Shown here piece after piece: positions 6,424-17,390 of a stretch of 20,036 nt of DNA (within the stretch, counting starts at the first letter, position 1; each line of letters starts with the position of its first letter). This stretch comes from a virus. The translations under genes and the position numbers were made by a program. The notes beneath the pieces were generated by a model. It had not been told where the DNA came from. It searched no databases and saw only the letters and a program-made list of their open reading frames with translations. Location of the stretch: IMG/VR virus record IMGVR_UViG_3300048586_000042, positions 1-20,036 of that record; one strand, 5' to 3'.

Positions 6424-6433
6424 GAGGCAGGCG

Positions 6434-6453
6434 TTGAAGACTTAAATCTTCAA
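6434..6453. repeat. Inverted repeat TTGAAGA/TCTTCAA just after the primase gene
   Basis: TTGAAGACTTAAATCTTCAA is a near-perfect 20-nt palindrome: 7-bp arms with TTAA at the centre and one mismatched pair. It starts 11 nt after the primase stop and shares the core TTGAAGA with the iterons 200 nt downstream, so it may bind the same protein. It could also act as a weak RNA hairpin at the transcript end. Confidence 0.6.
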
Positions 6454-6536
6454 GCTCTGACTTCAAACGCATAAGCTATTGATAAAATAGGCGTAATGTT
6501 AAAATTCAAGACTTCAATCAACCCATGTCTCTTATA

Positions 6537-6551
6537 TCCCCCATAGGGGGA
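6537..6551. repeat. Short palindrome TCCCCCATAGGGGGA
   Basis: Six-bp arms around an ATA centre form a G/C-only island in AT-rich DNA. It could be an operator half-site pair or a short hairpin. There is no T-run after it, so it is not a classic terminator. Confidence 0.4.
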
Positions 6552-6606
6552 CACGGTAAGACACATGCCATAATATATATATTGAATTGAATTCTTGAAT
6601 TTTAAT

Positions 6607-6619
6607 GTATTTTTAATAC
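6607..6619. repeat. Short palindrome GTATTTTTAATAC
   Basis: Five-bp arms (GTATT/AATAC) around TTT, located 20 nt before the tandem repeats and overlapping the weak -35 of the candidate promoter. A repressor or initiator site is possible; chance occurrence in AT-rich DNA is not excluded. Confidence 0.35.
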
Positions 6620-6639
6620 AAAACAACAACTTGTATGAT
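6611..6639 (+). promoter_or_regulatory. Candidate promoter driving the packaging and head genes
   Basis: TATGAT at 6634-6639 is a good -10 match, with TTTTAA at 6611-6616 as a weak -35 at 17-nt spacing. Transcription would start inside the tandem repeats that begin at 6640, so a protein bound there would control it. Direction and position fit a late promoter for the genes from 6793 onward, but alphaproteobacterial or phage polymerase preferences may differ. Confidence 0.3.
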
Positions 6640-6672
6640 TTGAAGATTGGTTGAAGATTGGTTGAAGATTGG
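6640..6672. repeat. Three tandem 11-bp iterons, TTGAAGATTGG
   Basis: TTGAAGATTGG is repeated three times without change or gap at 6640, 6651 and 6662. An 11-bp period is close to one helical turn, so three protein molecules would line up on one face of the DNA. Such iterons are typical of origins bound by an initiator or of cooperative operators. The primase-helicase gene immediately upstream makes an origin plausible. Confidence 0.75.
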
Positions 6673-6779
6673 AAGTTTTGCGCTGGCGGGAAAAATCGGG
6701 CCGATCGTGCTGATGCCGTCAGGGATTTGCGGCGGTAGCTCCGCAATGCTATCAGCAACGCCGACGCCACGATCTCCGC

Positions 6780-6787
6780 AAGGAGGT
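6780..6787 (+). promoter_or_regulatory. Consensus ribosome binding site AAGGAGGT that fixes a TTG start
   Basis: AAGGAGGT is a full match to the 16S anti-Shine-Dalgarno and ends 5 nt before TTG 6793. No ATG or GTG in that frame sits at a suitable distance, so TTG is the likely start of the next gene. Strong site plus rare start codon may set a moderate, fixed expression level. Confidence 0.75.
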
Positions 6788-6792
6788 CATCA

Positions 6793-7092
6793 TTGCCAGC
6801 AGCTGTCGCCGTCGTGCCACGACGCGCCCCTGACACCGGCCTCGTGCGCCCATACCGGCCCGCGCCCGCCGACTTCCGCGAAGTCTATCTCCGGATGGGA
6901 TGGGACGGCATCGCCGACCACTACCGCACCAACTGGCGCGTCATCCGCCGGTGGATCGAAGAATGCGGAGGCGAGGAGCTGCGCCAAGAGCGCTTCGCCA
7001 TCGCCGGCGCCAAGGTCGGCGGAAAGCTGCGCACCAACCGCCGCAGCGCCTACGTGCTGGGCAGAACGCTGACGGCGAAGGTGAGCAAATGA
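6793..7092 (+). CDS. Small HTH-like phage protein, possible regulator
   Basis: A 99-residue basic protein. After an unstructured N-terminus (PRRAPDTGLVRPYRPAP) comes a helical block, DFREVYLRMGWDGIADHY followed by NWRVIRRWIEECGGEELR, which looks like a helix-turn-helix: a GWDGIADHYRTNW turn and a recognition-helix-like VIRRWIEE. The tail is rich in Arg/Lys (KVGGKLRTNRRSAY). I recall similar short proteins immediately before terminase genes in alphaproteobacterial phages, without an assigned function. The TTG start is supported by a consensus Shine-Dalgarno. Its stop overlaps the terminase small-subunit start (ATGA), so the two are translated together. It may regulate late genes or assist packaging-site recognition; both are inferences. 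Confidence 0.75.
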   Translation: MPAAVAVVPRRAPDTGLVRPYRPAPADFREVYLRMGWDGIADHYRTNWRVIRRWIEECGGEELRQERFAIAGAKVGGKLRTNRRSAYVLGRTLTAKVSK

Positions 7093-7541
7093 GTTGGCAG
7101 GAACGCTTCATCCGGCCCGATAGCCGGTTCCCGCTCGAAATCGTCGAAGAGCTTCTGGAAGCCCTGCGAGACGGCCGCTCTATGCGGGAAATCTGCGCCG
7201 ACGAACGGATGCCGTCCCGCGAAACCGTCAGGCAGTGGGCGGAGGCGGACGACGACCTTGCCTTGGCCATAACGCGTGCGCGCGAAGTCGGCTTCTTCGA
7301 TCGTGCGGAGCGCGCCGTGGAGGACGCGAAGGCCGCCAAGGATCCGCAGAAGGGCCGCCTTGCGTTCGACGCCGAGCGCTGGTTCCTGGGCAAGGTCTCC
7401 AAGGCCTTCGCGGACAAGACCGTGATCTCGGGCGACCGGGAGAACCCGCTGACTCACGACCATCGCGTCGACCTCTCCGGAGCGCCCGAAGAGGTGATCC
7501 GGTATCTGGCCGGGCAGAAGCTGCCGAATGAAGGTTCCTGA
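7089..7541 (+). CDS. terS: Terminase small subunit
   Basis: A 150-residue protein that would recognise the phage packaging site and hand DNA to the large subunit. The N-terminal third has an HTH of the small-terminase type, IVEELLEALRDGRSMREICADERMPSRETVRQWAEADDDLA, where SMREICADE and SRETVRQW are the two helices. The middle is helical and charged (RAREVGFFDRAERAVEDAKAAKD) and leads into FDAERWFLGKVSKAFADKT, the oligomerisation-like segment common in this family. It starts at ATG 7089 within an ATGA overlap with the HTH-like gene and overlaps the large-subunit gene by 14 nt. Gene order and the sequence agree, so confidence is high. Confidence 0.85.
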   Translation: MSWQERFIRPDSRFPLEIVEELLEALRDGRSMREICADERMPSRETVRQWAEADDDLALAITRAREVGFFDRAERAVEDAKAAKDPQKGRLAFDAERWFLGKVSKAFADKTVISGDRENPLTHDHRVDLSGAPEEVIRYLAGQKLPNEGS

Positions 7542-8985
7542 TGCCTATGTGCTGGCCGCCCGTCGGGAGTTGGCCAGTCGCTCACTCGCCGAGTTCGCGC
7601 GACAGGCATGGCATGTGCTGGAGCCTGCGACCGATCTGAAATGGGGCTGGGCCCTCGATGCGATTTGCGAGCACCTTGAGGCCGTGACGCGGGGCGAGAT
7701 CAAGCGGCTGCTGATGAACGTCCCGCCCGGCTCGATGAAGTCGCTGCTGACCGGCGTGATCTGGCCGGCGTGGGAGTGGGGGCCGAAGGGGATGCCTGCG
7801 ACCCGCATTCTCGCCACGGCGCACAAGCAGGATCTGGCCGTCCGCGACAACATGAAGTGCCGGCGGTTGATCCAGTCGGCATGGTATCAGCGCCTGTGGC
7901 CGATCGAGTTGACCAGCGATCAGAACGCCAAGACGAAGTTCGAGAACAGCGCGACCGGGTTCCGCGAGGCGATGGCCTTCACCAGCATGACCGGCAGCCG
8001 GGGCGATCGCGTGATCCTGGACGATCCGCATAGCGTCGATGACGCGAACAGCGTGGCGAAGCTGGAGGGCGATATCCGGACGTTCCGCGAGGCGCTGCCA
8101 AGCCGGGTGAACAATGATAGATCCGCAATCGTCATCATCATGCAGCGGCTGCACGAGAAGGACGTTTCAGCCGTCGCGCTGGAATTGGGATACGAGCACC
8201 TGTGCATTCCGATGCGGTTCGAGGTGGAGCGGCGCTGCACCACGTCAATCGGGTGGACGGACCCGCGCGAGGTGGACGGCGAACTGATGTTCCCGGAGCG
8301 CTTCCCCGAGGCGCAGGTTGTCGAGCTTGAAAAGACGCTTGGCAGCTACGCGACGGCGGGACAGTTGCAGCAGCGTCCAGCGCCTCGGGAGGGCGGACTG
8401 TTCAAGCGCCATTGGTTCGACTTCCTCGGCGCTGTTCCGGCCGGCCATCGCAAGCGCGTCCGGGCTTGGGATTTGGCCGCGACCGAAAAGGCAACCTCGA
8501 CCGATCCGGACTGGACTGCTGGCGTCCTCATGTCGCGGGGCGAAGAAGGCCTGTTCCTGATCGAGCATGTCGAACGGCAGCGCGGCTCACCGATGGCGGT
8601 CAGCCAGACGATCAAGCTGCGTGCCGCGACAGATGTTCGAGGCACCATAATCCGAATTCCGCAAGACCCGGGACAGGCCGGAAAGGGGCAGGCTCAGACC
8701 TATGTGAAGGAGCTCGCCGGCTACACTGTGAAGGTCGAGCGCCCGACAGGCGACAAGGCTGCGCGGGCGACACCGGCGGCTATTCAGGCTGAGGCCGGCA
8801 ACATTCGCATCCTCAAAACTGGCAACCCGGACAGGGACGCGTGGATCGAGCCATTTCTCGACGAGGTATGCCTGTTTCCCGGCGCCGCACATGACGACCA
8901 GGTCGACGCCTTGTCCGACGCCGTGAACGAGCTCGCGCTCGGCACGGGCTACGACTATCGCGGCGCAGCCTCGCGGGGCCTCTGA
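7528..8985 (+). CDS. terL: Terminase large subunit (ATPase-nuclease)
   Basis: The packaging motor, 485 aa. Walker A is NVPPGSMKS (Lys71), an atypical form usual in large terminases. Walker B is RVILDDPH (Asp165, Asp166), followed by a coupling motif region around IVIIMQRLHEKD. The C-terminal RNase H-like nuclease has its first acidic residue in RAWDLAATEK (Asp315) and the last cluster in AAHDDQVDALSDA (Asp456, Asp457, Asp460). The order and spacing are those of the Terminase_6-type family. ATG 7528 lies within the small-subunit gene, a 14-nt overlap. The stop TGA (8983-8985) is the first three bases of a 14-nt repeat that recurs after two other genes. Nothing in the protein appears truncated. 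Confidence 0.95.
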   Translation: MKVPDAYVLAARRELASRSLAEFARQAWHVLEPATDLKWGWALDAICEHLEAVTRGEIKRLLMNVPPGSMKSLLTGVIWPAWEWGPKGMPATRILATAHKQDLAVRDNMKCRRLIQSAWYQRLWPIELTSDQNAKTKFENSATGFREAMAFTSMTGSRGDRVILDDPHSVDDANSVAKLEGDIRTFREALPSRVNNDRSAIVIIMQRLHEKDVSAVALELGYEHLCIPMRFEVERRCTTSIGWTDPREVDGELMFPERFPEAQVVELEKTLGSYATAGQLQQRPAPREGGLFKRHWFDFLGAVPAGHRKRVRAWDLAATEKATSTDPDWTAGVLMSRGEEGLFLIEHVERQRGSPMAVSQTIKLRAATDVRGTIIRIPQDPGQAGKGQAQTYVKELAGYTVKVERPTGDKAARATPAAIQAEAGNIRILKTGNPDRDAWIEPFLDEVCLFPGAAHDDQVDALSDAVNELALGTGYDYRGAASRGL

Positions 8986-8996
8986 CGGCGGTAACG
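8983..8996 (+). repeat. Stop-codon-linked 14-nt repeat, copy A
   Basis: TGACGGCGGTAACG begins with the terminase stop codon and gives a second in-frame stop two codons later (TGA CGG CGG TAA). Identical copies are at 12460 and 15472. The next start codon (portal, 9028) is 45 nt from its first base and has no clear Shine-Dalgarno. Confidence 0.8.
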
Positions 8997-9027
8997 GAGC
9001 GCGCGCATCCGGCATAGCCATGCCAGC

Positions 9028-10935
9028 ATGGCAATTCGCACCATGTTCGACGGCCTGATCAACGCCCTGTCCGGAATGGGCACCACGACCGACGTGCGGA
9101 CGCGGACTGGCTATGCTTTCGTGCCGCTCGACCGGGTGCAGATCGAGGCCGCCTATCGAGGCTCCGGGCTCATCCGCAAGATCATCCGCATCCCGGCCGA
9201 TGACATGGTGCGAGAGTGGCGCGACTGGCAGGCCGAGCGCGATCAGATCACGGCGCTGGAGGCGGAGGAGCGCCGCCTGAATGTGCGCACCAAGGTGCGG
9301 CAGGCCGAAATCCTGCGCGGACTTGGCGGCGGGGCGCTGATCCTCGGCGCGCCCGGCGATCCGGCGCAGCCGCTGCCGACGAACATGGGCGTCGGCTCGC
9401 TCGCCTACATCCACGTCGTGAACCGCTGGCAGCTTTCGTTCAGCGCGCTTGTCGACGATCCGGTTGACCCGCTGTTCGGCGGCCCGCCCATGTTCACCAT
9501 GCCGACCACGCGCGGCCAGCGGCAGATTCACCCGTCCCGCGTCGTCTGTTTCCGGGGCGACCCGCTTCCAGAGTTGACCGGCACGGCGCGCACGGAAGAC
9601 AGCTTCTGGGGCGAAAGCCGCATCGAGGCCATCCTTGACCCGGCGAAGGATGCGGACGCGGCGCGGCAGGCCTTCTCTGCGCTGATCCAGAAGGCGCGGC
9701 ATACCCGCATCGGCATTCCGGGCCTGCTGGAGATCGCGGCGACGCAAGAGGGGGAGCAGATGATCTCCCGGCGGTTCCAGGCCCTCGCGCTGTCGGAGAG
9801 CAACTACAACGTCACCCTGTTCGACGCCGGGATGGACGGCAAGGACGGCGAGGCGATCACCGACCATCAGGTCACATGGACCGGCATTCCGGAGATCATG
9901 AACGCGTTCGCCATGTTCCTCGCCGCCGTGGCCGATATCCCGGTCACGCGGCTGATGGGGCGTGCGGCGGAGGGCATGAACGCCAGTGGCGACAGCCAGC
10001 AGCGAGACTGGGCGAAGGCGATCAAGGCGCGGCAGACGCTGCAGCTGCAGCCCTGCCTTGACCAGCTGGATGCTGCACTCATCCCGTCGGCGCTTGGGAG
10101 CCGCCCGGCTGAGGTGTGGTGGGAGTTCGCCTCCCTCGATCAGCCGACGGACAAGGAGGAAGCCGACCGCTTCGCTACGTGGATGGGCGCGATGGAGAAG
10201 CTTCAGGCAACGGCGGCGATTCCGGAGGTTGCGTTTGCCAAGGCGATTCAGACCGGCATTGTCGAGAATGGCTGGGCTCCCGGCCTTGAAGGCGCGCTGG
10301 ACGAAATCCCCGAGGCCGACCGCTATGGGATCGAGCCGGACGAGGACGACGGGACGGACCCGAGCGCGCTGACGCAGCGGCCGGACACTGACGAGCCTGA
10401 CGAGGACGAGGCGGACGAAGGGGCGCGCACTGCAAATGACGCGGCGGCATGGATCGCCGATGGCGAGCCGAAGCCGCTCTATGTGCAGCGCAAGCTCGTT
10501 AACGCAGCCGAGTTGATCGCTTGGGCTCGCGCAAACGGCTTCGAGACGACCCTGTCAGCGGCAGACATGCATGTGACGGTGCTTTACAGCCGCGCTCTCG
10601 TCGATCCGATGAAGATGGGCCGGGACTGGCGCGAAGATGAGCGCGGCGAAATCGCGGTCAGACCGGGCGGTCCTCGTGCGATTGAGCGGCTTGGCGAGAA
10701 TGCAGTGGTGCTGCGGTTTGCCTCGCCCGATTTGGAATATCGGCACAAGGATCTGATAGAAGCCGGTGGCAGCCACGACTATCCCGACTATCAGCCCCAC
10801 GTCACGCTAAGCTATACGGTGCCGGACAGCTTAGACCTGAACGCGATCAGGCCGTTCAATGGCGCGCTGCGGTTCGGCCCTGAAATCTTCGAGACGCTCG
10901 ATTTGGATTGGAAGTCGAAGATCAGGGAAGCCTGA
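9028..10935 (+). CDS. Portal protein (DUF1073 type) with C-terminal Acb1-like 2H domain
   Basis: A 635-residue portal that would form the ring through which DNA enters and leaves the head. The N-terminal ~430 residues match the DUF1073 portal type, with IRKIIRIPADDMVREWRDW and IPVTRLMGRAAEGMNASGDSQQRDW from about residue 304. A very acidic linker (about 436-470) leads to a separate domain starting PLYVQRKLVNAAEL. That domain has two HxT motifs, HVTVLYS (His515, Thr517) and HVTLSYT (His591, Thr593), the signature of 2H phosphoesterases and of the anti-CBASS nuclease Acb1, which degrades cyclic oligonucleotide signals. Databases link DUF1073-type proteins to Acb1 for this reason. The portal role rests on position and motifs; enzyme activity of the tail domain is an inference. 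Its stop overlaps the next start (TGATG). Confidence 0.88.
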   Translation: MAIRTMFDGLINALSGMGTTTDVRTRTGYAFVPLDRVQIEAAYRGSGLIRKIIRIPADDMVREWRDWQAERDQITALEAEERRLNVRTKVRQAEILRGLGGGALILGAPGDPAQPLPTNMGVGSLAYIHVVNRWQLSFSALVDDPVDPLFGGPPMFTMPTTRGQRQIHPSRVVCFRGDPLPELTGTARTEDSFWGESRIEAILDPAKDADAARQAFSALIQKARHTRIGIPGLLEIAATQEGEQMISRRFQALALSESNYNVTLFDAGMDGKDGEAITDHQVTWTGIPEIMNAFAMFLAAVADIPVTRLMGRAAEGMNASGDSQQRDWAKAIKARQTLQLQPCLDQLDAALIPSALGSRPAEVWWEFASLDQPTDKEEADRFATWMGAMEKLQATAAIPEVAFAKAIQTGIVENGWAPGLEGALDEIPEADRYGIEPDEDDGTDPSALTQRPDTDEPDEDEADEGARTANDAAAWIADGEPKPLYVQRKLVNAAELIAWARANGFETTLSAADMHVTVLYSRALVDPMKMGRDWREDERGEIAVRPGGPRAIERLGENAVVLRFASPDLEYRHKDLIEAGGSHDYPDYQPHVTLSYTVPDSLDLNAIRPFNGALRFGPEIFETLDLDWKSKIREA

Positions 10936-11777
10936 TGCGCTACGATCTGGCCGCGATAACCCGTCGGGCAGGAAAGCGAAGGCGCGGCCGCGTCATCATC
11001 CGCGACATCGCGCCGCCCTCGACGCTTGCGACAGACCTGTTCCGGAACTGCTACCTGCCCGTCATCGACCTGTGGGAGCAGGCGCTGCCGGGGATCGAGG
11101 CGGAATATGCGCGCGCGCTGTCGCAGATGGTGACCGACAGCGCTGACGACGTGCAGGTTCGGATTGATGCCGCCGATGGGCTGTTCCAGCGCCTACTGAT
11201 AACGCTGACCTGGCGGCTGCGCGACTGGGCGATCCGAACCGAGGCATGGCAGCGCGGCCGCTGGCGCGGCGCGGTGCTGTCCGCGACTGGTGTCGATGCC
11301 GGAACGCTTATGGGGCCTGAGCCGGTTCGCGCGCCGCTTGAGGCCGTGGTGCGGCGCAACGTGGCGCTGATCAAGGACGTGCATGCGCAGGCGCAGGGCA
11401 AGATTGCGGATGCTGTGTTCCGGGGGCTGACGCAGAGGCGCCCGGTGGCGGAGGTGGCGAAGGATATCCGTGAAGCTGTGGCGATGGGACGCGCGCGGTC
11501 GAGGCGGATCGCGAGCCACCAAATGGCAGCTTTGACGAGCAGCCTTGCAGACGAAAGGCGCAGGGAGGCCGGAATAACCGAATGGCAATGGGTCCACTCG
11601 GGAAAACTGAATCCGCGCAAGTTCCATCTGGAGCGGGACGGCAAGGTCTACACTGATGATCCGGAGCGTGTAGGCGAAGAAATAAACGGCAAGAAGATCA
11701 GTGAGGCGCCAGAAGACAGGCCCGGTCAACTGCCCGCATGTGGGTGTCGTTCGCGCTCTGTGATTGATTTGTCTTAG
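10935..11777 (+). CDS. Mu F-like / SPP1 gp7-like head morphogenesis protein
   Basis: A 280-residue minor head protein made next to the portal, as usual for this family, which is thought to be packaged inside the capsid. The family signature is the C-terminal region: RSRRIASHQMAALTSS, then ITEWQWVHSGKLNPRKFHLERDGKVY and finally PGQLPACGCRSRSVIDL, with the His and paired Cys typical of the Mu F domain. The first half is helical and Arg-rich. ATG 10935 is preferred because it overlaps the portal stop (TGATG); an in-frame upstream start at 10908 lies inside the portal gene. The gene ends at TAG 11775-11777, followed by the inserted HNH gene and its hairpin leader. Confidence 0.88.
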   Translation: MRYDLAAITRRAGKRRRGRVIIRDIAPPSTLATDLFRNCYLPVIDLWEQALPGIEAEYARALSQMVTDSADDVQVRIDAADGLFQRLLITLTWRLRDWAIRTEAWQRGRWRGAVLSATGVDAGTLMGPEPVRAPLEAVVRRNVALIKDVHAQAQGKIADAVFRGLTQRRPVAEVAKDIREAVAMGRARSRRIASHQMAALTSSLADERRREAGITEWQWVHSGKLNPRKFHLERDGKVYTDDPERVGEEINGKKISEAPEDRPGQLPACGCRSRSVIDLS

Positions 11778-11796
11778 GATTTCAGGCAGAAAAGGC

Positions 11797-11855
11797 GGGC
11801 CGCAACGGTGCTACCAACACCGCGCGGCCCTTACCACCACGCGAAAGGGCCGCGC
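11797..11855 (+). promoter_or_regulatory. Two mutually exclusive hairpins before the HNH-AP2 gene
   Basis: A central strand GCGCGGCCC (11822-11830) can pair in two ways. Upstream, 11797-11803 (GGGCCGC) pairs with 11824-11830 and 11806-11810 (CGGTG) with 11818-11822, giving a 7+5 bp stem around a 7-nt loop. Downstream, 11847-11855 (GGGCCGCGC) pairs perfectly with 11822-11830 for 9 bp around a 16-nt loop. The second form ends 1 nt before the HNH start codon at 11857 and buries the AAAGGG ribosome site. This looks like an attenuator or translational switch. Leader hairpins that hide ribosome sites are known for phage homing endonucleases. Confidence 0.65.
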
Positions 11856-11856
11856 C

Positions 11857-12462
11857 ATGGCTAGCCGAGCCGATATCACCCCTGACCTGTGCCGCCAACT
11901 GCTCCGCTATGAGCCAGAGACCGGCAAACTGTTCTGGAAGCCGCGTCCGGCGAGCATGTTTGAGGACAGTCCCTACCGTGGTGGCGTTCGAACTGCGGAG
12001 TGGGCTTGTAATGCCTGGAACTCCAAGTGGGCTGAGGCGGAAGCGTTCACGGCGTCGAACGGCGCCGGTTATCGGGTTGGGGCAATCGCCGGAGTCAATT
12101 TTCGCGCCCACCGGGTTGCCTGGGCAATCGTCCATGGCGAGTGGCCGGCTGACCAGATTGACCACATCAATGGCGACAGAAGTGACAACCGGCTCGATAA
12201 TCTGTTGCCTGTCACCAATGCCATCAATCACCAAAACGAAGGCCTGCCGAAGAACAACACAAGCGGCGTCGCCGGTGTTTACTGGTGTAAGCACACCGGT
12301 AAGTGGAGGGCATTGGTCAAGGTGAATTACAAAAGCAGGTGCCTTGGTCGGTATGCCACGATTGCGGAAGCACAAGCGGCCCGAAAAGCCGAGTTGGATC
12401 GGCTTGGGTTCGCTGAAGGTCATGGGCAACGAAGGGCTTGGTCGCCCCCCCCCAAATCCTGA
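11857..12462 (+). CDS. HNH homing endonuclease with AP2 DNA-binding domain
   Basis: A 201-residue free-standing endonuclease. The nuclease core is QIDHINGDRSDNRLDNLLPV, then NAINHQN (His103, Asn115, His125), preceded by the FRAHRVAWAIVHGEWP helix-strand typical of HNH_3 enzymes. An AP2-like three-strand domain follows from about residue 133: NNTSGVAGVYWCKHTGKWRA, then GRYATIAEAQAARKAEL. ATG 11857 follows AAAGGG; the open frame upstream is non-coding leader. It interrupts the head operon between the Mu F-like gene and the protease gene and brings its own hairpin leader, so it is a mobile passenger. Codon use is less GC-biased (AAT, AAC, GTT frequent) than in the head genes, consistent with later arrival. 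A run of nine C lies near its end. Confidence 0.9.
   Translation: MASRADITPDLCRQLLRYEPETGKLFWKPRPASMFEDSPYRGGVRTAEWACNAWNSKWAEAEAFTASNGAGYRVGAIAGVNFRAHRVAWAIVHGEWPADQIDHINGDRSDNRLDNLLPVTNAINHQNEGLPKNNTSGVAGVYWCKHTGKWRALVKVNYKSRCLGRYATIAEAQAARKAELDRLGFAEGHGQRRAWSPPPKS
12445..12453 (+). repeat. Run of nine C near the end of the HNH-AP2 gene
   Basis: Nine consecutive C encode the prolines of SPPPKS, directly before the stop. A one-base change would move the frame past the normal stop and the 14-nt element into the next region. It is a slippage-prone or error-prone tract. Confidence 0.9.
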
Positions 12463-12473
12463 CGGCGGTAACG
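12460..12473 (+). repeat. Stop-codon-linked 14-nt repeat, copy B
   Basis: TGACGGCGGTAACG, identical to the copies at 8983 and 15472, beginning with the stop codon of the HNH-AP2 gene. The next start (12505) is 45 nt from its first base, the same distance as at copy A. Confidence 0.8.
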
Positions 12474-12504
12474 CGCCAAATTCGGCCGGGTTACCAGATG
12501 GGGC

Positions 12505-13623
12505 ATGCAATTCTGCGACGCCCTCACGCTGGACGCGCCCCGCCGCACAAAGGACGGCTATCTCGTCGTGCGCGCCAAGGCGGCGCGGACCGGCGTCTAT
12601 GAATACACCGGCCGCGAGATCGATCCGCAGAACAAGCACGGCTTGCGGGACACGGCTGTCGTCAAGGTGCTGCGCGATGACGCCACCGTGTTCGACGCCG
12701 CCGCCGTCCGCAGCTTCATCGGCAAGCCCGTCACAGACGACCACCCGGCCCAGCCCGTCACTGCCGACAACTGGCGTCAGCACGCGCGGGGCGCTGTCAT
12801 GGGCGCGATGCGGGATGGGGAATATCTCTCGTTCGACCTGATGCTGGCCGACGCCTCCGCCATTCGGAAGGTCGAAGGCGGCAAGCGCGAACTGTCGAAC
12901 GGCTACGCGGCCGAGATCGAATTCGGTGATTTCGCCGCGCCGGACGGCACGAAGTGCCAGGCCCGGCAAGCCCGCATCATCGGCGGCAATCATGTCGCCC
13001 TCGTCGATCGGGGCCGCGCTGGCCCTGACTGCGCGATCAAGGACCGCTTTGCGGTCTGCGACGCGAACCCAGAGGCCATCGCGCCTCTTTCCAACCACAA
13101 GGAGACGCCAGCGATGGCAGGAACAATCATTGTTGACGGCCTGCCCGTGTCGCTGGCCGATGAGGCGGCGGTTCGCGCCGTGCTCGCCAAGAAGGACGCC
13201 GCCATCGAGGCGGCTGACAAGGCTGTGGCCGATGCGAAGGCTGTGGCCTCTACGCTGAGCGGCGAGAAGGCGGCCCTTGAGAAGGCGCTGGCCGACGAGA
13301 AGGCCCGCACCGAACCGGCTGCACTGGACAAGCTGGTTGCCGATCGCGCCGACCTGGTGGCGAAGGCCAAGGCCGCGAAGTCCGATATCGTGACGGACGG
13401 CAAGACCGACGTGGAAATCCGCCGCGCCGTGGTCGAATCCGCCCTGGGTGATGCCGCCAAGGGCATGGACGACGCTGCGATTTCCGGCGCGTTCGCTGTC
13501 GTCACCAAGGACGCCAAGCCCGGCACCGCCACGGCAAAGGCCGACCCCATCGCCCGCCCCGCGAGCTTCGCGGACACGGCTTCCATCGCCGCCGCTGCCC
13601 GCGCCGGCCGCTACGCCAACTGA
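12505..13623 (+). CDS. DUF2213 prohead protease fused to a scaffold domain
   Basis: A 372-residue protein with two parts. Residues 1 to about 190 match the DUF2213 phage family, a predicted head-maturation protease: YLVVRAKAARTGVYEYTGREI, GKPVTDDHP, RGAVMGAMRDGEYLSFDLMLAD, ELSNGYAAEIEFGDFAAPDGT and IIGGNHVALVDRGRAGPDC. Residues about 204-372 are Ala/Lys/Asp/Glu-rich, helical and coiled-coil-like, typical of scaffold, with a C-terminal helix ending AARAGRYAN. Prohead proteases commonly carry scaffold as a C-terminal domain; an internal start (13114) would make scaffold alone. The start has no clear Shine-Dalgarno but is placed 45 nt after a 14-nt stop-linked repeat, as at the portal. It precedes the cement and capsid genes, the usual order. 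Confidence 0.85.
   Translation: MQFCDALTLDAPRRTKDGYLVVRAKAARTGVYEYTGREIDPQNKHGLRDTAVVKVLRDDATVFDAAAVRSFIGKPVTDDHPAQPVTADNWRQHARGAVMGAMRDGEYLSFDLMLADASAIRKVEGGKRELSNGYAAEIEFGDFAAPDGTKCQARQARIIGGNHVALVDRGRAGPDCAIKDRFAVCDANPEAIAPLSNHKETPAMAGTIIVDGLPVSLADEAAVRAVLAKKDAAIEAADKAVADAKAVASTLSGEKAALEKALADEKARTEPAALDKLVADRADLVAKAKAAKSDIVTDGKTDVEIRRAVVESALGDAAKGMDDAAISGAFAVVTKDAKPGTATAKADPIARPASFADTASIAAAARAGRYAN
13114..13623 (+). CDS. Probable separate scaffold product from an internal start
   Basis: ATG 13114 is in frame with the protease gene and lies behind AAGGAG (13099-13104) at 9 nt, the best ribosome site in the 1.1-kb gene. It would give a 169-residue product beginning MAGTIIVDGLPVSLADEAAV, exactly at the boundary between the protease domain and the Ala/Lys-rich coiled-coil part. 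This is the arrangement of lambda C/Nu3, where one gene gives protease-scaffold fusion and free scaffold. The site is visible; its use is inferred. Confidence 0.55.
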   Translation: MAGTIIVDGLPVSLADEAAVRAVLAKKDAAIEAADKAVADAKAVASTLSGEKAALEKALADEKARTEPAALDKLVADRADLVAKAKAAKSDIVTDGKTDVEIRRAVVESALGDAAKGMDDAAISGAFAVVTKDAKPGTATAKADPIARPASFADTASIAAAARAGRYAN

Positions 13624-13634
13624 GGAGCTGACCC

Positions 13635-14090
13635 ATGGCAGTCGTGCAATCCGTCTATCTCGATCAGCCCGCCGGGGCTTATGCCGGTCTCGTCGCCAGC
13701 GGCGAGACGTCGAACATCATCAGCCGCACCGTGGTGGATGCTGCCGGCATCGGCTTCGGCAAGGGCGCCTACCGCTCCGGCGATACCGGTGTGACCGGCA
13801 CCCCGGCCGCTGGCGTCGGCAACTTCCTCGGCTTCACCGTGGCGCATGAAGCGCTGCCGCTGCTGGCCGGCGGAACGGCCGACACCTACCCCCAGTATGA
13901 AACCGCCGCGATCATCTCGAACGGCGCAATCTGGGTGACGGCGGGCGAGGACATCACGCTGGGTGCGCAGGTCTATGTGACCGGCGCAGGCGCGATCGTC
14001 GACACGGTCGGTTCCAACACCATCGCAACCGGGTGGTTCTTCGACACCACCGCCCTCAACGGCGGCCTCGTCCGCATCGCCAAGCGCTAA
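13635..14090 (+). CDS. Capsid cement/decoration protein (gp24-like)
   Basis: A 151-residue beta-rich protein located between the scaffold and major capsid genes, where cement proteins usually lie. It contains GAYAGLVASGETSNIISRTV, GIGFGKGAYRSGDTGVTG, FLGFTVAHEALP and AIWVTAGEDITLGAQVYVT, alternating short strands and Gly turns of the structural cement gp24/DUF2190-like type. The protein would stabilise the expanded capsid by binding between capsomers. ATG 13635 follows GAGGAG overlapping the previous stop, so the ribosome site is good and the two genes are coupled. The assignment rests on position and composition, with moderate family recognition. Confidence 0.75.
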   Translation: MAVVQSVYLDQPAGAYAGLVASGETSNIISRTVVDAAGIGFGKGAYRSGDTGVTGTPAAGVGNFLGFTVAHEALPLLAGGTADTYPQYETAAIISNGAIWVTAGEDITLGAQVYVTGAGAIVDTVGSNTIATGWFFDTTALNGGLVRIAKR

Positions 14091-14105
14091 GGAAGGGCCT
14101 GCCCC

Positions 14106-15182
14106 ATGAACGCAATGACGCACCAGTTTGTTGATGCCAAGGGCGAGATCGATTTCGCCGCATGGCGCGCCCATGACGCCAAGCTGGCCGCCAGCTTCGG
14201 TGATCGCGTGGACGATTTCATCGCCGGTGACATCCTCACCCGCGACCAGATCGGCCGCGCCTTCCTGACCCCGCAGCTGCACCGCATCGAATCCGAAGTC
14301 TACATGCGGAAATATCCGTCGTTCGACTTCGCCAGCCTCATGACCGTCAACACCGATGGGGACATGTGGGACGTCGGCACGGTGTTCTATTCGATGGACA
14401 ATGTCGGTCAGGCGCAGTTCCTGAGCGGCAAGGCCTTCGACATGCCCTACGCCTCCAACCTGGCCGAGCAATACAGCCGCGGCTTCCACCTCGCCGGCAT
14501 CGGTTACGAGTGGTCGCTTCAGGAGCTGCAGCGCGCTGCGAAGCTGGGCCGTTCGCTGGGTGCGGACAAGGCGATGGCCGCTGATCAGGTGGCGCAGTCC
14601 TTCCTCTGGTCTGTCGCGATGACGGGCCGGACGCCGGGCGCTGCTGCATCGGAGAAGAACTGGACCGGCCTCGTTAACGACGCCAACGCCCCTTCGGCGC
14701 AGGTGGCGGCGGACGGCTCCGGCTCCTCGCGTCTGTGGAGCTCCAAGACTGCCGATCAGATCCTCCGGGATGTGAACGACGCCCTGGAAGCGGTGTTCAC
14801 CGGCACGAAGGAAACCCACGCGGCGAACACGCTGCTGCTGCCGACGAGCTCGTTCCAGCAGATCGCTCGCACCCGACTGGGCGATACGACCCAGACGGTT
14901 CTGGCGTTCCTGCAGGCGAACAACAGCTACACCGCGATGACGGGTCAGGCCCTCACCATCCGCGCCACCCGCGCGCTGGAGACGGCGGGCACGTCGAGCA
15001 CCAAGCGGCTCGTGGCCTATGACAACAGCCGTGAGGTTGTTCGCTTCCACCTGCCCGGCCCGTTCCAGTTCCTGCCGGCCTATCAGAAGTCCAGCATGGT
15101 CTGGGAAGTGGGCGGGATCATGAACACGGGCGGCACCGAAATCCGGCTGCCGAAGGCCGTGGTCTATCGGGATTCGTTCTGA
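14106..15182 (+). CDS. Major capsid protein (DUF2184 type)
   Basis: A 358-residue protein of the DUF2184 major capsid family. Features include FLTPQLHRIESEVYMRKYPSFD, MWDVGTVFYSMDNVGQAQFLSG, the AGIGYEWSLQELQRAAKLGR stretch near residue 135, AANTLLLPTSSFQQIA, and the C-terminal LPGPFQFLPAYQKS and IMNTGGTEIRLPKAVVYRDSF. Conserved RYPxxD-like and TGGTEIRxPxA-type ends are usual. It is expected to form the icosahedral shell. ATG 14106 follows AAGGAAGG, a strong ribosome site as needed for the most abundant virion protein. A G/C-rich UUCG hairpin lies just after the stop and may stabilise or reduce downstream transcript. No cleavage site was identified. Confidence 0.9.
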   Translation: MNAMTHQFVDAKGEIDFAAWRAHDAKLAASFGDRVDDFIAGDILTRDQIGRAFLTPQLHRIESEVYMRKYPSFDFASLMTVNTDGDMWDVGTVFYSMDNVGQAQFLSGKAFDMPYASNLAEQYSRGFHLAGIGYEWSLQELQRAAKLGRSLGADKAMAADQVAQSFLWSVAMTGRTPGAAASEKNWTGLVNDANAPSAQVAADGSGSSRLWSSKTADQILRDVNDALEAVFTGTKETHAANTLLLPTSSFQQIARTRLGDTTQTVLAFLQANNSYTAMTGQALTIRATRALETAGTSSTKRLVAYDNSREVVRFHLPGPFQFLPAYQKSSMVWEVGGIMNTGGTEIRLPKAVVYRDSF

Positions 15183-15197
15183 GGACATCGGAGAGCG

Positions 15198-15221
15198 TGG
15201 GGCGGGCTTCGGCTCGCCCCA
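15198..15221 (+). terminator. Strong UUCG hairpin after the capsid gene
   Basis: GGGGCGGGC and GCTCGCCCC form a 9-bp stem (one G-U) around a TTCG loop closed by C-G, plus an outer T-A pair. UUCG hairpins are very stable. No T-run follows, so it is more likely an mRNA-stabilising or partial-termination element that raises capsid over connector expression. Confidence 0.5.
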
Positions 15222-15240
15222 TCCGCATGTGGAGACGATC

Positions 15241-15474
15241 ATGCAGGTCAAGAACATCAGCACCGGCCCGCGCGGCATCTGGGCGAAGGGCGGCGAGCTT
15301 GTGATGCTGGAGCCCGGCGAGGTTCAGGACATCGACCTGGCCGACGGCGAGGAAGCGGGCGAGTGGTTCGAGTTCGGCGGTTCGGACGCTGGAGGCAAGC
15401 CCGCCAAGCGCGGCAGGAAGGCGGCAGAGGCGGCTGCCGGGGAAGAACCGGACGTTCAGGCAGACGCCGACTGA
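15241..15474 (+). CDS. Small acidic protein in the head-connector cluster, unknown function
   Basis: A 77-residue protein beginning MQVKNISTGPRGIWAKGGEL, then a VMLEPGEVQDIDLADGEEA stretch, and an Ala/Lys/Glu-rich tail. The N-terminal half looks like a small beta domain followed by a disordered tail. Short proteins of this pattern (KNISxGPRG and then LxPGE) are frequent after the capsid gene in such phages and have no assigned role; a virion accessory or chaperone is possible. ATG 15241 follows GGAGA at a good distance; an in-frame GTG at 15229 would add four residues but lacks a ribosome site. The stop is the start of the 14-nt repeat, copy C. Confidence 0.75.
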   Translation: MQVKNISTGPRGIWAKGGELVMLEPGEVQDIDLADGEEAGEWFEFGGSDAGGKPAKRGRKAAEAAAGEEPDVQADAD

Positions 15475-15485
15475 CGGCGGTAACG
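15472..15485 (+). repeat. Stop-codon-linked 14-nt repeat, copy C
   Basis: TGACGGCGGTAACG, identical to the copies at 8983 and 12460. It begins on the stop of the small connector-cluster gene and lies 43 nt before the next start (15515), whose upstream end GGGGC is shared with copy B. Confidence 0.8.
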
Positions 15486-15514
15486 GGCCTGCCTGTTTCG
15501 GGTGATGACGGGGC

Positions 15515-15925
15515 ATGGCCCACACCGTTCCGACCGCTGCTGACCTGAAGGCTCGCTACCCGGGCTTTGCGGCCGTGCCGGATGCGACGGTCAATTACTG
15601 GATCACCGATTCCCAGCGGATTGTGACGTCGGCCTGGATTGAGGCGGATTATCCCATCGCCCTGATGCTGCTGGCCGCGCACGAGCTGGCGATGGCCGGG
15701 CTTGAGGCCGGGGAGGCGGCTGGTCTGCCGCAGGGCGTCACGCGCTTCAGCTCCGGCTCGATGGACGTGGCCTTCGCGGAAGGGCTGGCGAGCGCGACCA
15801 GCTATGGCTCGACGCGCTATGGCCGCGAGTTCCAGACGCTGCTGCGGCGGAACCGGGGCGGTGCGATCGTGACGGCGCCGGGCACGGTTCCGACTGGCAC
15901 TGTCGCGCCGGGGTTCGGCGCATGA
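15515..15925 (+). CDS. DUF4054-like head-tail connector protein
   Basis: A 136-residue helical protein matching the DUF4054 pattern: AADLKARYPGFAAVPDATVNYWI, then RIVTSAWIEADYPIALMLLAAHEL, then a Gly-rich loop and the YGSTRYGREFQTLLRRN helix. Proteins of this type are head-completion adaptors that dock below the portal. The Trp-Ile-Glu-Ala-Asp-Tyr region and LLAAHELA helix are the most diagnostic. The start is ATG 15515, preceded by GACGGGGC rather than a good Shine-Dalgarno, 43 nt after the 14-nt repeat. Its stop overlaps the next gene (ATGA), so translation is coupled. Confidence 0.8.
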   Translation: MAHTVPTAADLKARYPGFAAVPDATVNYWITDSQRIVTSAWIEADYPIALMLLAAHELAMAGLEAGEAAGLPQGVTRFSSGSMDVAFAEGLASATSYGSTRYGREFQTLLRRNRGGAIVTAPGTVPTGTVAPGFGA

Positions 15926-16478: not shown

Positions 16479-17390
16479 ATGGCGCTGCCGACAATTCCTG
16501 TGCTGGACGGAAATGGTGACCCCATCAACGTCAACACGCTGAACAGCGGCCGAAGGGCTGCGACCGACAGCGCGGCCATGGTGCTTTCGACCGAGGACTT
16601 CGCGGCCCTGACTGCGGTTCGCCCGGTGACGCAATCCGGCGCTTGGATGGTTGGCCTGAGCGGCGCGATCCCGGCTGGAACGAACCCCATCGGCTCGGTG
16701 ACGGTCTCTGGTTCTGTCGCGGTGACGGGGGCGCTGACGGATGCGCAGCTTCGGGCGACGGCTGTTCCTGTAAGCGCCACATCGCTTCCGCTTCCCACTG
16801 GCGCGGCGACGGCTGCGGCTCAGGCGACCGGCAATGCGTCGCTGACGAGCATCGACGGCAAGCTGGCAAAGGGGCAGGCGACAAAGGCTAATTCTCATAG
16901 CGTTGTCTTTGCCTCCGACATTGACCCGATGACGATTGCGGGGACGGTGACGGCGAGCTTCTCCGGCTCCCTTCCGGCAGGCGGGAATACCATTGGCGCG
17001 GTGACGCAATCCGGCGCTTGGATGGTTGGCCTGAGCGGCGCGATCCCGGCAGGCAACAACAACATTGGGGACGTTGACGTTGCGAGTGTGCCGCAGATTG
17101 CCACCACGACGCGGGCGCTCGACTATGCGAACGGGGTCACGGTGACGGCGGGGGCGGCTTCCAGCGCATCTGCGGCCATCGCGGCGGCTGAGATTTGCGT
17201 TCACAACGCGGGAACGGTTCGCGCCTATATCCGGCAGGGTTCCGGCACGCCGACTGCATCGGTTGCAGCGACGAGCCTTCCGCTTGAGGCGGGGGAGAAA
17301 ATCTGGCTGCGGCACACGTCGGGCCATGCGGTTGCCGCGATCCGGGACGGGGCGAGTGACACGGCCATCCGCATCATCCCGGTGGCCTGA
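16479..17390 (+). CDS. Repeat-bearing virion surface protein, likely fibre-type
   Basis: A 303-residue protein, Thr/Ala/Gly/Ser-rich with short beta strands, typical of phage fibres and collar proteins. It begins MALPTIPVLDGNGDPINVNT and holds a repeated module TQSGAWMVGLSGAIPAGTNP (again near residue 175, ending GNN) and the TVSGSVAVTGALTDAQLRAT block. The C-terminus, EICVHNAGTVRAYIRQGSG, then EKIWLRHTSGHAVAA, resembles the beta domain often fused to fibre ends. The module repeat is exact at the DNA level for 52 nt (16624-16675 and 16999-17050), so it is recent. ATG 16479 follows TAGGAG overlapping the previous stop. The function is inferred from composition and place. Confidence 0.65.
   Translation: MALPTIPVLDGNGDPINVNTLNSGRRAATDSAAMVLSTEDFAALTAVRPVTQSGAWMVGLSGAIPAGTNPIGSVTVSGSVAVTGALTDAQLRATAVPVSATSLPLPTGAATAAAQATGNASLTSIDGKLAKGQATKANSHSVVFASDIDPMTIAGTVTASFSGSLPAGGNTIGAVTQSGAWMVGLSGAIPAGNNNIGDVDVASVPQIATTTRALDYANGVTVTAGAASSASAAIAAAEICVHNAGTVRAYIRQGSGTPTASVAATSLPLEAGEKIWLRHTSGHAVAAIRDGASDTAIRIIPVA
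16624..16675 (+). repeat. 52-nt direct repeat, copy 1
   Basis: Identical base for base to 16999-17050 and in the same reading frame. Encodes the TQSGAWMVGLSGAIPAG module. Exact identity in a region where codon wobble would have diverged implies recent duplication or gene conversion. Confidence 0.85.
16999..17050 (+). repeat. 52-nt direct repeat, copy 2
   Basis: Second copy of the element at 16624-16675, separated by 375 nt (125 codons) from start to start, so the frame is kept. Recombination between the copies would remove one module in frame. Confidence 0.85.

Follow-up and report, generated by a model that had tools for sequence, protein, structure and literature searches.

The repeated word and the genes around it

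The question raised by this locus is why one short word closes three genes of a phage and each time stands at almost the same distance from the start of a structural gene, and at which level it acts. The window, that is, the whole stretch of DNA analysed, is the entire 20,036-base IMG/VR record, and its genes include those for a DNA methylase, helicase, primase, terminase, portal, head morphogenesis protein, HNH endonuclease, protease, cement protein, major capsid protein and connector. A scan of the window found CTGACGGCGGTAACG (15 nt) in three identical copies, all on the + strand, at 8982-8996, 12459-12473 and 15471-15485, compared with about 0.0003 exact copies expected from the base composition; when up to three mismatches were allowed, 13 matches were found compared with 2.4 expected. 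The preliminary description, which had reported a 14-mer at 8983, 12460 and 15472, was thus confirmed, and the C that precedes the 14-mer in all three copies extends the shared word to 15 nt.

The other positional claims of that description also held. The TGA of the element is the stop codon of the TerL gene (7528-8985) in copy 1, of the HNH endonuclease gene (11764-12462) in copy 2 and of an open reading frame (15229-15474) in copy 3, and the reading TGA CGG CGG TAA places a second in-frame stop inside the element each time. From the T of the element to the next ATG there are 45, 45 and 43 nt, which correspond to offsets 46, 46 and 44 counted from the C. These ATGs open the portal gene (9028-10935, +), for which a leaderless start is predicted, the head maturation protease/scaffold gene (12505-13623, +; DUF2213, phrog_530) and the gene of a connector/adaptor-like virion protein (15515-15925, +; phrog_302), and none of the three has a Shine-Dalgarno site. 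The CGG lying 13 nt after the element, which had been noted as a common feature, does follow each of the three window copies; relatives do not conserve it, and we rejected it as a coincidence of the spacer.

Several other features of the window were recorded. Another 14-mer, GAGCGGCGCGATCC, is present in exactly three copies, at 16658, 17033 and 18866, within coding sequence; with one mismatch permitted, 0.08 matches would be expected. The C-terminus of the portal protein matches the anti-CBASS protein Acb1 (PF23474, residues 483-630, E 4e-39); the shorter portals of several relatives match only the front part, and in Synechococcus phage Yong-M3-232 the Acb1-like region is annotated as a separate overlapping ORF. 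The HNH/AP2 endonuclease gene (11764-12462), which ends on the TGA of element copy 2, is an insertion that separates the head morphogenesis gene from the protease gene and has 59% GC, compared with 64-68% in its neighbours. Between the primase gene and the small gene fam12, positions 6424-6790 are AT-rich (42% GC in a 65% GC record) and contain three tandem 11-bp repeats, TTGAAGATTGG, at 6640, 6651 and 6662; this stretch looks like a replication origin with iterons.

Distribution of the element in related phages

Relatives of the portal were drawn from viral contigs and named bacterial genomes, and their genes were called with a hexamer model, because the first caller had picked antisense ORFs in GC-rich DNA. 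The search found 88 element copies across 15 related phages and prophages of sphingomonads, nearly all of them on the late-gene strand and before head and tail genes. The named carriers are mainly Sphingomonadales (Stakelama, Rhizorhabdus, Novosphingobium, Sphingomonas and Sphingobium), together with one unclassified alphaproteobacterial bin. Near-complete relatives typically have 5-9 copies per genome, while the reversed word occurs 0-2 times. The same targets recur among the 15 phages: the portal gene in 13, the protease gene in 13, one tail-region gene in 11 and another in 10. Variants are coherent within a lineage: one phage has TGACGGAGGTAA at every site, another has TAACGGCGGTAA at most of its sites, and a third has TGACGACGGTAA. 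The overlap with an upstream stop codon, which had seemed characteristic of the element, recurs in 35 of the 88 copies; it is not obligatory and does not define the element, and starting on a stop codon is a space-saving coincidence shared by about 40% of the copies.

A bipartite motif with fixed spacing

When 98 copies were aligned on the box alone (the stricter set comprises the 88 copies), no conservation was seen upstream, and a single downstream peak appeared at offsets 33-34 (T in 61/98, A in 76/98). A TA at offset 32-35 was present in 67/88 copies, compared with 5.6% of random positions (binomial P about 4e-65), and an ATG opening an ORF at offset 42-48 in 48/88 copies, compared with 4.7% of random positions; at offset 44-46, an ATG was found in 46 of the 88. 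Of the window copies, the first two carry the TA at offset 33, within the -10-like hexamers TAGCCA (9015-9020, +) and TACCAG (12492-12497, +), of which the former can be compared with the -10 TANNNN of Zymomonas sigma-A (PMC7566282). Copy 3 reads GATGAC at this position (15504-15509, +), so that the A of the TA is kept and the T is not; this copy is the weakest of the three and speaks against the promoter model.

The starts behind the 88 copies fall into two classes, 53 at offset 43-47 and 24 at 57-69 behind a Shine-Dalgarno site; 11 copies fit neither class, and some of these are probably chance matches inside genes. The TA stays at offset 33 in both classes. Since the box keeps its distance to the TA while the start moves, the element goes with a -10 box and not with the start codon, and it is this constant distance that tells a promoter apart from a translational element.

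The spacing was also examined in 2.9 million viral contigs of IMG/VR, some of which are also in the training set, so that the scan serves as a control of spacing more than as a fresh sample. A spaced pattern was used for these contigs, many single matches to an unrestricted 15-mer being expected by chance. Box + N20 + TA + N10 + ATG was found in 34 stretches, compared with 11 when the ATG was shifted by 3 nt and 0 when the TA was shifted by 4 nt.

Probable late promoters with predicted leaderless starts

Around the element, initiation also differs from that of other genes. A Shine-Dalgarno-like 4-mer precedes 4 of the 54 element-proximal starts, compared with 214 of 321 other genes (P 4e-17) and 14% of random positions, and the element-proximal start codons comprise 47 ATG and 6 GTG, as is expected for leaderless starts. 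Zymomonas mobilis belongs to the Sphingomonadales, and its mapped sigma-A promoters have the form TTGNNN-17-TANNNN; their discriminator measures 6 bp, a T at -7 is not conserved, and 119 of the transcripts of this bacterium are leaderless (PMC7566282). The element agrees with this sigma-70-type -10 in having TANNNN at a fixed distance from the start. A TTGNNN 17 nt before the -10 is absent, and positions 10-15 read TAANNN in nearly all copies. With TANNNN at offsets 33-38 and the geometry of Zymomonas, the transcript is predicted to start at offset 45, on the A of the ATG.

In our view, the word serves as the upstream box in a family of late promoters of these phages, with predicted leaderless starts, and we give this reading a probability of about 0.85. 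The box CTGACGGCGGTAA would lie at about -45 to -33 and would be followed by 20 nt, a minimal -10 hexamer TANNNN and a 6-nt discriminator, with transcription starting at offset 45 ± 1. At the portal, protease and connector genes, the transcript would start on the A of the ATG and give leaderless mRNAs, and at other late genes the same transcript start would open a 12-24-nt leader with a Shine-Dalgarno site. Copy 1 (8982-8996) is predicted to be the activator or -35-region box in the promoter of the portal gene. Because the box occupies the place of the -35 (TTGNNN) and has TAA there instead of TTG, host RNA polymerase would probably depend on an activator encoded by the phage or on a substitute reader of the -35. 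The promoter nature, the transcript start, the leaderless translation and the phage-encoded reader are all inferred from sequence, and late promoters giving leaderless mRNAs are the most likely explanation of the elements. The missing Shine-Dalgarno sites would then result from leaderless initiation and not from a translational function of the element. The preliminary description had suggested control of initiation, transcription or cassette exchange; the bipartite promoter-like motif, placed at 5-9 sites per near-complete genome, favours transcription.

Other words in the same layout

Where relatives lack the word, a different one stands at the same place before the portal and protease genes. 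In six phages this word is CGTCCGTAG, with 30 copies and a start 31-37 nt after the word in 24/30; the TA is at a fixed place in only about 7/30 copies of this lineage, which is a gap in the promoter model. In one phage, CGAACCTACA is followed by a TA 19 nt after the word, and the copies that look true have their starts at 29-33. GCCGTAA is the replacement word in one phage and AGCGGCGGGAA in a Synechococcus phage. Caulobacter hibisci prophage L232 has CGTCGAGATGACGCC five times with at most one mismatch (7867, 9912, 13990, 18864 and 20028, one of them on the opposite strand), before the portal and protease genes. Among the Rhizobiales relatives, most lack a box of this kind, and their starts are of the Shine-Dalgarno type.

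Candidate readers of the box

Among 18 phages searched for genes with sigma-70 region 4, PF08281 gave no match above the cut-off and PF04545 gave one in a single phage (1/18). As a refinement of the promoter reading, we tentatively considered that the specificity for the box lies in fam12, acting as a late activator from the terminase operon, a reading that we hold to be possible and nonetheless short of an even chance. In the window, fam12 (6793-7092, +) encodes a small basic putative helix-turn-helix protein. It begins with TTG behind AAGGAGG (6780-6786), a Shine-Dalgarno site, and its stop overlaps the start of the terminase small subunit gene (7090-7541, +), whose start we re-assigned to about 7090. 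The family, mostly basic proteins of 60-100 residues encoded beside the terminase genes, was found in 28/32 portal-related records, about 2-3 kb upstream of the portal, and in iterative profile searches it was the sole non-virion family in all 26 genomes profiled. Its structural model is a three-helix bundle with a core pLDDT of about 90, and comparison with Pfam, PHROGs, PDB sequences, and PDB and viral-model folds gave no significant match. These points make fam12 a candidate late regulator with putative DNA binding. As a box-binding activator of the Mu C type, fam12 is a candidate that is universal among the 26 genomes but does not co-vary with the word beyond phylogeny: the partial Mantel test of fam12 against the word given portal distance gave r = -0.02 (P = 0.64), very different fam12 subtypes share the same word, and similar subtypes go with different words. 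Word similarity follows the portal phylogeny (r 0.68), and fam12 adds nothing beyond it. A packaging role would account for the universal presence too. The broader proposal that the clade keeps the layout and a universal fam12, which directs RNA polymerase as an activator, while the box word is swapped at every late promoter between lineages, is in our opinion more doubtful still.

Multi-module putative helix-turn-helix proteins related to fam12, with a shared C-terminal domain (AGQAADYLRRFGPV...), are encoded at 12825-13397 of L210 and in relatives, and in phages G009 and G024 the AGQAADYLRRFGPV-type C-terminal domain is fused to fam12 itself.

Reading of the word by an alternative sigma factor or an activator of the host appears improbable to us, even though the search of the 18 phages found no phage sigma factor and the word is common to phages of one bacterial order. 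In named host genomes with the cluster, at least 26 of the 31 exact 12-mers sit inside a prophage, which makes a host regulon unlikely, and related phages with the same layout carry different words.

Less probable than a host reader is an action of the word in the mRNA, as a site for the ribosome or an RNA-binding protein or through stop-start coupling. The overlap with the upstream stop in the 35 copies and the position of the word before starts without Shine-Dalgarno sites would suit it, but over half of the copies have no such overlap, the distance to the start shifts from 45 to 57-69 nt while that to the TA is constant, and the spacing across IMG/VR depends on the TA. Recombination or cassette exchange at module boundaries, which the location of the word at gene boundaries and beside the inserted HNH gene might suggest, is hardly credible given the fixed spacing to the TA and the start, the single strand, and words that are uniform within a phage and replaced at all sites of a lineage, and this part of the preliminary description is not supported.

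Comparison with known systems

The promoter reading is strongly supported by these sequence comparisons, and the late promoters would be of a known general kind. Those described in PMC4461284 likewise occur several times in a genome; they share an upstream box beside a poor -35, have a host-type -10 and need a phage activator, which is only inferred here. The predicted promoters of the sphingomonad phages differ in having 5-9 copies, many of them predicted to be leaderless, and in the wholesale replacement of the word between lineages. The leaderless sigma-A promoters of Zymomonas mobilis (PMC7566282) share the -10 TANNNN, the discriminator of 6 and the start on the start codon, which is predicted here, whereas their -35 TTGNNN is replaced here by a 13-nt phage word.

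In the gene transfer agent cluster of Caulobacter, also an alphaproteobacterium, the phage-derived regulators GafY and GafZ, together with IHF, assist the sigma-70 of the host at capsid genes whose -35 is degenerate (PMC11150451), as a phage-encoded reader would do at the box. There, the GafY site lies at about -120, IHF is needed, and one main promoter works with anti-termination, whereas the box described here borders directly on the -35 region and is repeated at intervals of a few kb. Similarly, the SAS/ESAS of cluster K mycobacteriophages (PMC3203893) is a short word in one orientation before many genes, almost absent from the host, and sometimes contains the upstream stop codon. In contrast, the SAS is separated from the start by 3-7 bp, includes AGGAG and is found at non-structural genes; the word of the window stands 45 nt before the start, lacks a Shine-Dalgarno core and belongs to structural genes. 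The replacement of the -35 by a phage-specific word, the mostly leaderless structural genes and the wholesale replacement of the word between lineages would together be an unusual combination. We found no earlier description of it in the open-access literature searched, which is not proof of absence, and a literature search for the word itself returned nothing relevant.

The element can serve as a sequence signature by which to recognise late promoters and true start codons among sphingomonad phages of a large and mostly uncultured group, and the lineage-specific words provide a set of natural cases in which a regulatory word was replaced at many sites at once. The work also draws attention to fam12, small phage proteins that form a conserved family not represented in Pfam or PHROGs. 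If the promoter reading is confirmed, the capsid and tail operons of these phages would be driven largely by leaderless mRNAs.
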